The position numbers and the translations under genes were made by a program. Shown piece by piece: positions 21,801 through 25,040 of a stretch of DNA of 26,538 nucleotides (its first letter is position 1; each line of letters begins with the position of its first letter). The DNA lies in IMG/VR virus record IMGVR_UViG_3300027777_000130, positions 1-26,538 of that record; one strand, written 5' to 3'. The notes beneath the pieces are model-generated. The model saw only the letters and a list, made by a program, of their open reading frames with translations. It was not told where the DNA came from and made no database searches. The DNA is from a virus.

Positions 21801-22463
21801 ATGAACCTAATACCAATTCTATTACTCACACTTGGTCAGCAGGTAACACTGCCACCCGAGATCCATGGTCAGCCTGGAGCTTTCATCAGCATCCCATCAG
21901 TCACTGATTGCAAGTCTGTTCAATGGGTGGTACTCGATGCAGGGCTTAACCTATTTCCAGTGGAGTTATTACGAGATACCACCACCGCAGTTGTCAGCGC
22001 AAACAACCCTGGCAAATACAGAGTCCTAGCCTATGCTGCAAAAGGGGATGCTGCCAGCAAACCTGTGATCACCACTGTCATCATTGGCGATCCACCCGAA
22101 CCAACCCCAGTACCGGATGAGGCAACCAGCAAATTCCAGCGAGAGCTTAAGTCCTTATATGTGTCACTTACAGAGGATGATAAACAAGGGAAAGTTAACA
22201 AACTATCCAGCCTTTATGCCAGCTTTGCCACCACTGTTAAGGGTGAGGAAGTCACGACTGCTGGGGAGTTATTAGCCATTTGTAAAGAAGCAGTAGCAAG
22301 GGTATTAAGTCCTTCAGATTTGCGAGAAATAAGAGTAAGGATACAATCTGAGATGTCAGGTTTCCCGACTGATCCAGATGAAAAGCTGGATGACAAAACA
22401 AAAAAAGTAATAAGTGGGAAATTTATGGAAATATCTAAAGCCTTGGAGCGAATAACTAAGTGA
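21801..22463 (+). CDS. Probable secreted protein of planctomycete-phage type
   Basis: A 220-residue protein with a hydrophobic, signal-like start (MNLIPILLLTLGQQ) but no basic n-region. It is followed by an Ig-like domain (about 15-93), with SVQWVVLDAGLNLFP and VVSANNPGKYRVLAYAAKGD, closing in VIIGDPPEPTPVPD. A Pro-rich hinge leads to a C-terminal helical domain (about 107-220) with LKSLYVSLTEDDKQGKVNKL and SLYASFA. From memory this domain sequence is common next to the papain-like peptidase in planctomycete prophages; no biochemical role is known to me. It overlaps the peptidase gene start in GTGA, so the two are coupled. Confidence 0.7.
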   Translation: MNLIPILLLTLGQQVTLPPEIHGQPGAFISIPSVTDCKSVQWVVLDAGLNLFPVELLRDTTTAVVSANNPGKYRVLAYAAKGDAASKPVITTVIIGDPPEPTPVPDEATSKFQRELKSLYVSLTEDDKQGKVNKLSSLYASFATTVKGEEVTTAGELLAICKEAVARVLSPSDLREIRVRIQSEMSGFPTDPDEKLDDKTKKVISGKFMEISKALERITK

Positions 22464-23374
22464 GTGGCCCATCCAATCTAGGATGGATTCCACCCTGTGA
22501 CCGCACTGCCGAGCAGATCGAGATGGACTCACAAATCCAAGCTCGATGGGAACCCTTCAAGATTAGGGGCAAGTATAAAGAACCCACCTCAGCCCTTCTC
22601 TATCGCTTCATTCATGATCATCACCCCTTCTACCAGATGACTGGCAGTTGCGTTGGCAATGGCCTAGGCATGGCTTTGTGGTGCCTTGAGTCCATAGAGG
22701 TGAATCAACTAGGTCAGCTTGAAAATCCTGTGTGTCCTTTTTGGCTACTCCCTTACGGAAAATCGCGCGAACTTGCTGGCATGAGTGGTAGAGGTGAAGG
22801 TAGTTTTGGCAGTGCAGCGATAGAAGCCTTGATGAAATTTGGCACCCTGCCATCCGATGATCCATCCGTACCACAACCTAAACTGGTAGACGGTGGTTTG
22901 ACCTGGGGTGAAGCTGCCGAAATGACATGGTCAGATGGCGCAGCAATCAAACCTGCATTCCTATTACGATCAAAAAAATACACCCTGCAAACCTCTGCCA
23001 GAATCAAATCATGGCAAGATGCCAAAGCTGCATTGATCAATGGGTATCCGCTAACCTGTGCCAGCAACTGGGGTGGGGAAATGGCCCCATCCATCAAAGG
23101 CACACCTGCAGTTATTCTAAATAAACGAGTAACCACATGGGGTCATCAGATGTGCTGCCTAGGGTGGGTCGATCATCCCGAACTTAAAGACATTTTTTGG
23201 ATTCAAAATTCATGGGGCATCTGTCACGGGAAATCCCCTGGTAATTACCATGAACCTGAAGGTGGATTTTGGATCACCGCAAAGGATATGCAATGGATTT
23301 GTGACGATGGTGAGGTGTTCTCATTGTCGAATTTTGAAGGGTTTCCAGTACAGAAACTCGATTGGTTAATTTAA
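22460..23374 (+). CDS. Papain-like (C1-type) cysteine peptidase
   Basis: The 304-residue protein carries the papain catalytic order: Gln59 upstream of Cys64 in GSCVGNG (oxyanion and nucleophile), His229 in TTWGHQM, and Asn250 in IQNSWG, the classic active-site Asn-Ser-Trp-Gly. Other family features are the Gly/Ser-rich loop (MSGRGEGSFGSAAIEALMKF, 108-127) and GGFWITAKDM near the end. No export signal is visible. Start is GTG at 22460 in overlap with the upstream stop. It occupies the usual endolysin position, between tail fibres and membrane proteins, yet no muralytic enzyme is seen in the window. Substrate is unknown: it could be a lysin on a protein-rich envelope, a maturation protease or a host-takeover factor. 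Confidence 0.85.
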   Translation: MSGPSNLGWIPPCDRTAEQIEMDSQIQARWEPFKIRGKYKEPTSALLYRFIHDHHPFYQMTGSCVGNGLGMALWCLESIEVNQLGQLENPVCPFWLLPYGKSRELAGMSGRGEGSFGSAAIEALMKFGTLPSDDPSVPQPKLVDGGLTWGEAAEMTWSDGAAIKPAFLLRSKKYTLQTSARIKSWQDAKAALINGYPLTCASNWGGEMAPSIKGTPAVILNKRVTTWGHQMCCLGWVDHPELKDIFWIQNSWGICHGKSPGNYHEPEGGFWITAKDMQWICDDGEVFSLSNFEGFPVQKLDWLI

Positions 23375-23386
23375 CTAGGAGTCAGT

Positions 23387-23566
23387 ATGTATTTTATCGT
23401 AGCAGCAGTTTTGGCAGTAGCACCAGTGGATTGCAAAGAGTGCAAACAATACAGCAAAAGCTGTGTGTCAGGTGCAGCCGTTAACAGTTCACCCGCAAAG
23501 AAGGTTCACAACCGACTGAAGACCATCAGGAATAAATTCCGCAGAGGTGGCAAATCCTGTGGCTGA
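23387..23566 (+). CDS. Small Cys-containing probable secreted protein (59 aa)
   Basis: The ATG is preceded by AGGAG at 7-base spacing, and the frame fills an otherwise empty 180-base gap. The start MYFIVAAVLAVAPVD is a short hydrophobic segment like a minimal signal peptide. It is followed by a Cys cluster (DCKECKQYSKSC) and a basic tail (KKVHNRLKTIRNKFRRGGKSCG). No family is recognised. The 3' end overlaps the next gene by 8 bases if that gene starts at 23559. A role with the lysis or membrane proteins is inferred only from position. Confidence 0.6.
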   Translation: MYFIVAAVLAVAPVDCKECKQYSKSCVSGAAVNSSPAKKVHNRLKTIRNKFRRGGKSCG

Positions 23567-23816
23567 GATCGACTGGCCCAATCTGATAGATAAATTAGGG
23601 GTGCCTGTCGCAGCTCTCGCTGCGATAGGTTACTCGATTTACAGCACCATCCGATGGATCGGAAACAACATCCTAATGCCAATCCACCAAAGACACCTGC
23701 TGTTTTTGGATCGTCTAGAGTCCAGCATTGATAAGATCTGCACCACTCAGGTGGACCAAAATAGCCAGATCATAAACCTAGCTAACAAGATTTCTCAAAC
23801 TAAGGATAAAGCCTAA
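23559..23816 (+). CDS. Single-span membrane protein, possible holin or spanin-like
   Basis: An 85-residue protein: a short N-terminal part (AEIDWPNLIDKLG), one membrane segment (about 13-31, VPVAALAAIGYSIYSTIRW), then a predicted amphipathic coiled helix (HLLFLDRLESSIDKICTTQV and on). The frame could start at GTG 23547, but GTG 23559 sits about 8-11 bases after AGAGGTGG and is preferred. Location after the peptidase and size suit a holin or lysis accessory. A single span with a long cytoplasmic or periplasmic helix is also seen in Rz-like or unknown phage proteins. The stop shares a base with the next ATG. Confidence 0.65.
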   Translation: MAEIDWPNLIDKLGVPVAALAAIGYSIYSTIRWIGNNILMPIHQRHLLFLDRLESSIDKICTTQVDQNSQIINLANKISQTKDKA

Positions 23817-24145
23817 TGCTATTACCATTTCCAGTAGATCTTCCCATAGAAGCAGTTGGTCTTTTGATTGATCGGCTCAGGGGCAAACCTATTCCCTTGC
23901 AAACAGCTTTGAACGCTGCATGGAATTTGGCAGGTTACGCTGCTACTCAAGTTCCAGTGAAAAGCGCAGAGGCTGAACCTGTGCAGGATTACCCTATCTC
24001 GGATGATGAAGTAGTAGCCCTGTTGGAACGCATCCAAGGCTTTTACTCAGTACCACAAAATGGTGACCCTGTTCAGTTTGGCATCATCCCCTGGGCAATT
24101 GTGTTGAAGGTCTTAATTAAGATGCTGATCAGTGCAGCCCTCTAG
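23816..24145 (+). CDS. Hypothetical protein with C-terminal hydrophobic helix (109 aa)
   Basis: No family is recognised. The first two-thirds are soluble-looking (LPFPVDLPIEAVGLLIDRLR, LQTALNAAWNLAGYAATQVP). A central acidic stretch follows (SDDEVVALLERIQGFYSVPQ), and the end is a hydrophobic helix (IIPWAIVLKVLIKMLISAAL, 90-109) that could anchor it in the membrane. The ATG shares a base with the preceding stop, so it is translated with the membrane protein before it, probably as a second lysis-cassette component. It overlaps the HNH gene by 14 bases. Confidence 0.6.
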   Translation: MLLPFPVDLPIEAVGLLIDRLRGKPIPLQTALNAAWNLAGYAATQVPVKSAEAEPVQDYPISDDEVVALLERIQGFYSVPQNGDPVQFGIIPWAIVLKVLIKMLISAAL

Positions 24146-24440
24146 AATATGTTTTGGGATACCCAGATCCAACAAATGGCCCACAGTCAGGAAGCAGTTT
24201 CTAAAGCTGCATCCTTTCTGTGCTGCCTGTGGATCCACTGAAAAGGTTGAGGTTCACCATGAGGTTCCCTACCACCTAGACCGATCTAGAGAGCTAGACT
24301 TTTCCAACATGATTCCCCTGTGCATGGGCAGTGGCCGATGTCATTTCGTTTGGGGTCACCTGTTAAGCTGGAAATCGGTAAACACTTCTGTTAGACTTGA
24401 CTGCATCAGGTATTACAAGAAAGTTGAAACACGACCTTAG
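24132..24440 (+). CDS. HNH endonuclease
   Basis: A 102-residue HNH nuclease. The zinc-knuckle Cys pair is FCAACGS (Cys30, Cys33), and the catalytic block is VEVHHEVPYH (His42-His43). An Asn follows at 59 (FSNMIPLC, Cys64), then CHFVWGHLL (Cys70, His71, His76). The start SNKWPTVRKQFLKLHPFCAACG is that of stand-alone phage HNH proteins, seen from memory in planctomycete prophages. HNH proteins can assist terminase cutting or act as homing nucleases. Here the gene is beside the attachment site, far from terS in linear order but not on a circular map. The only supported start is GTG 24132, inside the preceding gene, with a weak ribosome site. Confidence 0.85.
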   Translation: MQPSRICFGIPRSNKWPTVRKQFLKLHPFCAACGSTEKVEVHHEVPYHLDRSRELDFSNMIPLCMGSGRCHFVWGHLLSWKSVNTSVRLDCIRYYKKVETRP

Positions 24441-24995: not shown

Positions 24996-25040
24996 TTTGG
25001 GGTGGAAGAGGTCGCAGGTTCAAATCCTGTATCCCCGACC
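24996..25040 (+). other. attP: attP core: 3' half of a tRNA gene (probably tRNA-Pro)
   Basis: The segment from TTTGGGG (an anticodon-loop sequence with UGG) reads to a complete T arm, GCAGG-TTCAAAT-CCTGT (25014-25030). It is followed by an acceptor strand ATCCCCG, discriminator A and CC (to 25040). No D arm or 5' acceptor strand lies upstream, so it is not a functional tRNA gene. Carrying the tRNA 3' half lets integration restore the host gene. The UGG anticodon and the CCCCGACC ending fit tRNA-Pro. The base after ACC is T, not A. Confidence 0.8.

Follow-up and report, generated by a model that had tools for sequence, protein, structure and literature searches.

A temperate tailed phage, whose entire IMG/VR record of 26,538 b forms the window analysed here, carries a small gene cassette that is probably a lysis module. 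Its lysin would be a papain-fold cysteine peptidase of family C1 (PEP), acting with a secreted partner protein (SP) as a functional stand-in for an endolysin. The gene order of the window is terminase, portal, prohead protease, capsid, tail genes, fibres, cassette, HNH gene, tRNA-like att core and integrase (Table 1), and PEP thus sits in the endolysin place of a conserved cassette, as a first-pass annotation of this DNA had proposed. The record is a fragment of its phage, since relatives are about 34 kb long and have an early region that is absent from the window. A search of the window for an att site by tRNA scan gave none.

Table 1. Positions of the cassette genes and of the adjoining integration features in the window
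Feature	Position	Strand	Basis and remarks
SP, secreted partner, 220 aa	21801..22463	+	ORF; carries a signal peptide, an Ig-like beta-sandwich (about 15-95) and a C-terminal domain of five helices (about 111-219)
PEP, C1 (papain-fold) cysteine peptidase, 304 aa	22460..23374	+	ORF; GTG start, without signal peptide; Gln59, Cys64, His229, Asn250
CysSec, 59 aa	23387..23566	+	Homologues in 39 loci; hydrophobic N-terminus and several cysteines, fast-evolving
HOL, holin-like protein, 89 aa	23547..23816	+	Homologues in 51 loci; alignment; N-terminal hydrophobic segment, then charged helix
DLP, 109 aa	23816..24145	+	ORF; homologues in 53 loci; C-terminal hydrophobic segment, kept in cassette
HNH nuclease	24132..24440	+	Pfam PF01844 E 8e-5, above cut-off; homologues in 60 loci; travels with cassette
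tRNA gene 3'-half, probable attP core	25010..25040	+	GGTCGCAGGTTCAAATCCTGTATCCCCGACC, single copy; T-arm and acceptor read by eye; just upstream of integrase
Tyrosine integrase of the phage (context)	25157..26350	+	Pfam PF00589 E 7e-11

Results

PEP has the sequence and fold of a C1 peptidase. Counted from the GTG start, its catalytic residues fall at Cys64, His229 and Asn250, and Gln59 is probably the residue of the oxyanion hole. In an alignment of 22 diverse relatives Gln59, Gly62, Cys64, His229 and Asn250-Ser-Trp-Gly are all kept, and among the family loci that cover these positions the Cys is intact in 130 of 130 (two loci end before it and fall outside this count), the His in 132 of 132 and the Asn in 132 of 132, with the Gln present in 129/130, Asn-Ser in 132/132 and the Trp in 129/132. 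The residue order Cys-His-Asn, the oxyanion-hole Gln and the Asn-Ser-Trp motif are those of family C1. An AlphaFold2 model (pLDDT 88.4, pTM 0.89) has the papain fold, with xylellain (3ois) as the best Foldseek match (E 1.6e-11, 19% identity) and the cathepsins next. A profile made from the 22-relative alignment also finds xylellain best in the PDB (E 0.0056). Fold matches in BFVD are phage proteins named Peptidase_C1, another named peptidoglycan-binding-like and, more weakly, mycobacteriophage Lysin A. Pfam, NCBIfam and PHROGs gave no usable match from which PEP could be named: a PHROGs 'peptidase' family matches weakly (E 0.022), and the window PEP does not match PF00112, whose threshold an intein-bearing relative (L160) reaches exactly (score and cut-off both 20.7 bits, E 0.0005). 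The conserved residues, the PDB profile match, the fold matches of the model and the relative at the Pfam cut-off together make the C1 assignment well supported. The intact catalytic triad and C1 type read in the first-pass annotation are thus borne out, and the structural prediction that it proposed places xylellain as the nearest solved structure. Judged from these sequence features, PEP would be an active peptidase.

Successive scans of IMG/VR yielded 21, then 52, then 202 candidate PEP loci, and the best 80 of the 202 were kept. By HMM count the family comprises 132 loci in 27 clusters (clustered at 70% identity). It is phage-borne, on contigs of up to 221 kb; it has no Pfam model, and four queries of INPHARED found no record matching it. 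Across relatives dN/dS is about 0.05-0.15, and on this measure PEP is conserved beyond chance and appears to be under strong selection. Contigs of 221 and 206 kb each hold two slightly different PEP copies about 145.6 kb apart (L111/L121 and L118/L120), which are either two genes or the joined assembly of two strains. In L149 (4711-6711), L152, L155 and L160 (1130-3193) an intein with a LAGLIDADG homing endonuclease lies directly before the catalytic Cys, and L146 and L154 have the same insertion as judged by ORF length. The catalytic Cys is the +1 residue of the inserted inteins, and the two intein types share 25% identity and come from different clusters. Inteins favour the active sites of important genes, and their insertion at the PEP active site is a hint that the peptidase may be essential.

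The PEP start codon (GTGA) lies inside the stop of the preceding SP gene, so that the two genes are probably translationally coupled. The SP model (pLDDT 88, pTM 0.51) has two domains that are not fixed relative to each other. Fold and sequence searches give Ig-like matches alone, the Ig domain resembling the ones found in phage tail proteins, lambda gpV among them; the helical domain has no match in these searches, and no conserved polar residues hinting at an enzyme were seen in SP. Homologues of SP stand directly upstream of PEP in most clusters, with short gaps or overlaps. Other genes intervene between the two in L048, L052 and L097, and in exceptions such as L104 and L109 PEP is not adjoined by SP or an SP-like secreted protein. 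A lipoprotein in L167 appears, by eye, to retain the helical part of SP alone.

The window clade and its cousins have the cassette after the tail-fibre and collar genes, arranged as SP, PEP, CysSec (not always present), HOL, DLP and HNH. Three loci (L022, L041, L042) have the cassette intact but reordered, as HOL, DLP, HNH, SP and PEP, and for most large phages neither HOL nor DLP can be recognised beside SP-PEP. The only recognisable enzymes of the cassette are PEP and the HNH nuclease, which probably stands outside any lysis function. CysSec is weakly conserved. HOL, a putative holin, has a weak match to phrog_18771 (E 9e-5), a family of unknown function, and neither HOL nor DLP matches a named holin family in Pfam or PHROGs. 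The first-pass annotation had described the cassette as a secreted protein, the peptidase, a small Cys-rich secreted protein and two single-span membrane proteins. A signal-peptide protein is indeed encoded upstream and a 59-aa Cys-containing protein with a hydrophobic N-terminus downstream, and the two membrane proteins are plausible by hydropathy, since at a 19-residue threshold DLP passes and HOL falls just short while its homologues pass. Genes neighbouring PEP elsewhere in the family vary and include secreted Cys-rich proteins. A secreted trypsin-like serine protease lies a few genes downstream of PEP in L053 (L053:11971-12885), and an AAA ATPase adjoins a subtilase in a PEP-bearing prophage (L189:2618-5996), which together may form a defence system.

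The location of the pair is indicated by variants of its architecture. The window PEP has no N-terminal anchor. In five clusters, represented by L093, L164, L052, L097 and L099, hydropathy places a hydrophobic anchor at the N-terminus of PEP, and the same five clusters have a fusion of an SP-like protein with holin-like membrane helices. This coupling of an anchored enzyme with a fused partner, our strongest argument, points to a PEP-SP pair that works in the envelope. An N-terminal signal anchor on the enzyme, as in SAR endolysins, is present by hydropathy only in these variants. Consecutive genes of L054 encode two holin-like proteins, SP, a secreted thioredoxin-like protein and PEP. Secreted thioredoxin-domain proteins, some with Cys-rich stretches, occur beside PEP at L167:6852-7982, L168:6903-7505 and L054:6228-6572; a thioredoxin partner was rejected as a general feature, being found in 2 of 27 clusters only. 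Where present, such a protein might act as a reductase that maintains the active state of the catalytic Cys or opens envelope disulphides.

No ordinary endolysin was recognised alongside PEP. The first-pass annotation had seen no lysozyme, amidase or peptidoglycan peptidase in the window, and none was seen among the window proteins scanned against Pfam and PHROGs. It had also named a true endolysin elsewhere in the genome as the finding that would speak against its reading, and this was sought in more complete relatives. One of these (IMGVR_UViG_3300042526_000622; loci L013, L056 and L057), with a PEP 92% identical to that of the window, is listed by IMG/VR as linear but has an exact 127-bp direct end repeat and is therefore circular and complete. 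It has no peptidoglycan hydrolase among the best 25 Pfam families listed (the rest being weaker than 8.5e-4), in the complete NCBIfam list, or in PHROGs among the best 25 of 113 matches listed and ten unknowns searched singly. The complete phage-plasmid pPLIM01, described below, likewise has no recognisable peptidoglycan hydrolase by Pfam, so that in both complete genomes no other lysin of a recognisable family was found. Another relative, G004, has no peptidoglycan hydrolase by Pfam; its circularity was not relied on, as its 126-bp end match falls in a fibre gene with repeats. CHAP, Amidase_2, Phage_lysozyme, Peptidase_M15_3, Amidase_3 and SLT are absent from 38 PEP-bearing records totalling 3.5 Mb, some of which may be fragments, in searches that cover known hydrolase families and that give matches in control genomes. 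A phage control of 11 large contigs, chosen via ribonucleotide reductase, is uninformative because these contigs, which have no PEP, also have no Phage_lysozyme. PEP itself has no recognised peptidoglycan-hydrolase catalytic domain in Pfam, NCBIfam or PHROGs, and for this reason we describe it as working like an endolysin and do not file it as one. Neither PEP nor SP has a peptidoglycan-binding domain recognised by Pfam or PHROGs.

The sole convincing plasmid match of the PEP family is on pPLIM01 (L093, NC_014149.1) of Planctopirus limnophila DSM 3776, with 29.5% identity and E 1e-30 to the locus L052. This phage-plasmid, a complete circle of 37 kb, encodes terminase, portal, capsid, tape measure and tail proteins, an integrase and ParB, and its head module is shared with that of the window (TerL 37%, portal 32%, capsid 32%). 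The search for homologues and neighbouring genes suggested in the first-pass annotation thus led to a planctomycete element on which a distant PEP, with its catalytic residues kept, stands beside the same SP partner; the planctomycete link that had been raised there as a condition is real. On pPLIM01 the PEP-SP pair is followed closely by HNH and terminase genes and does not come after the fibres. Its PEP is annotated only as hypothetical, and a literature search on pPLIM01 found nothing. From this link we infer a planctomycete host for the window phage. The window PEP also matches the PEPs of prophages L164 and L165 (32% and 29%, E 5e-25 and 1e-24), whose IMG identifiers look like those of isolate genomes. 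Verrucomicrobiota were considered as hosts through an Opitutaceae bin carrying L054 and rejected; among 388 genomes only that bin matched, and it is therefore weak host evidence.

Discussion

In the lysis role that we propose, PEP would be made late in infection in the cytoplasm, as expected for an enzyme without a signal peptide, while SP is exported to the periplasm. The holin-like membrane proteins would then open the inner membrane, allowing PEP to meet SP in the envelope and to cut peptide bonds that keep the envelope intact. In pPLIM01-like lineages PEP brings its own anchor, and SP is fused to the holin-like helices. The substrate may be an envelope protein or the peptide part of peptidoglycan, with a slight preference for the former, since ordinary peptide bonds are what C1 enzymes cut; these enzymes are not known to be peptidoglycan hydrolases.

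The envelope of planctomycetes has been debated for decades. The premise of the first-pass annotation, that a protein wall replaces peptidoglycan in these bacteria, belongs to an older literature, as cited in PMC2754498, and is outdated: the sacculi of P. limnophilus consist of peptidoglycan that contains DAP and is sensitive to lysozyme (PMC4432640), and the premise is therefore unsupported. Given this sacculus, some activity against peptidoglycan should be needed, which counts against PEP as the lysin. It also lends weight to a variant of the lysin reading in which PEP, as CHAP and NlpC/P60 enzymes do, cuts the stem or cross-bridge peptides of peptidoglycan. No other hydrolase was found on pPLIM01 or, for the six domains, in the 38 carriers, and BFVD contains a phage protein of C1 fold whose annotation is peptidoglycan-binding-like. 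Nevertheless the motifs of PEP (Gln, Cys, His, Asn-Ser-Trp) are those of true C1 proteases, its nearest structures are xylellain and the cathepsins and not CHAP or NlpC, and neither PEP nor SP has a recognised peptidoglycan-binding domain. We therefore regard this variant as a rather doubtful form of the lysin reading.

Roles in the virion or in the host cytoplasm are less likely than lysis. A virion or assembly protease would mature tail-fibre proteins, or would ride in the particle and cut host surface proteins at entry. This would suit the position of the gene in the window clade, behind those for tail fibres and collar, and the resemblance of the SP Ig domain to those of phage tails, but the signal peptide of SP and the PEP anchor in five clusters are ill suited to assembly in the cytoplasm, the pPLIM01 pair is not placed after the fibres, and an S78 or ClpP-type protease already serves the head; we think such a role quite improbable. 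It is also unlikely that PEP is no lysin and acts inside or on the host, for example to shut it off, to exclude superinfection or to remodel the envelope while infection proceeds. The exported SP and the anchored PEP variants argue against a cytoplasmic target, and lysis by carriers with no recognised lysin would stay unexplained, even though a host function would fit phages of up to 221 kb that carry PEP, often beside metabolic genes, and the varied neighbours such as secreted Cys-rich proteins.

The lysin reading can be set beside known systems. Both C1 peptidases and phage lysins have been described before; the literature searched contained no C1 peptidase that takes the place of a lysin together with a dedicated secreted partner. 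Xylellain, the C1 protease of Xylella fastidiosa, has the papain fold and the Cys-His-Asn active site of PEP, but is a cellular enzyme with no secreted Ig-helical partner and no phage cassette. Peptidase_C1 or peptidoglycan-binding-like proteins of BFVD, such as A0A6J5LAR6, A0A6J5TCZ4 and A0A6J5MXS7, show the C1 fold in tailed phages, at 16-18% identity to PEP in a comparison by fold. CHAP and NlpC/P60 belong to the same peptidase clan as C1, and endolysins of these types have the role proposed for PEP but differ in motifs and fold branch. Like holin-endolysin cassettes, the PEP cassette combines a soluble enzyme with a separate predicted membrane protein after the tail genes, and the anchored enzyme and membrane protein of SAR-endolysin/pinholin cassettes are paralleled by the pPLIM01-like variants. 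Unlike both, its enzyme is a protease by family, it has an extra secreted partner and its membrane proteins match no known holin. The exit of planctomycete phages is essentially undescribed in the literature searched; the sole release study found describes a chronic release in which cells are not lysed and mentions no lysin, lysozyme or peptidase in its text (PMC10945688).

More tentatively, the family may represent an unrecognised and widespread lysis route of tailed phages, in which a true protease rather than a peptidoglycan hydrolase serves as lysin alongside a secreted partner of its own. Its users would be phages that infect planctomycetes, and perhaps related bacteria, and that range from 33-kb temperate phages to phages with contigs of more than 200 kb; we hold this broader proposal as a possibility that the evidence leaves doubtful. 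PEP and SP can now be named as a widespread gene pair that appears to be under strong selection, and a copy resides in the culturable strain P. limnophila DSM 3776, so that the question of lysis is directly testable. If the lysis role is correct, the pair would constitute a new class of lysin and would provide a probe of what holds planctomycete envelopes together.
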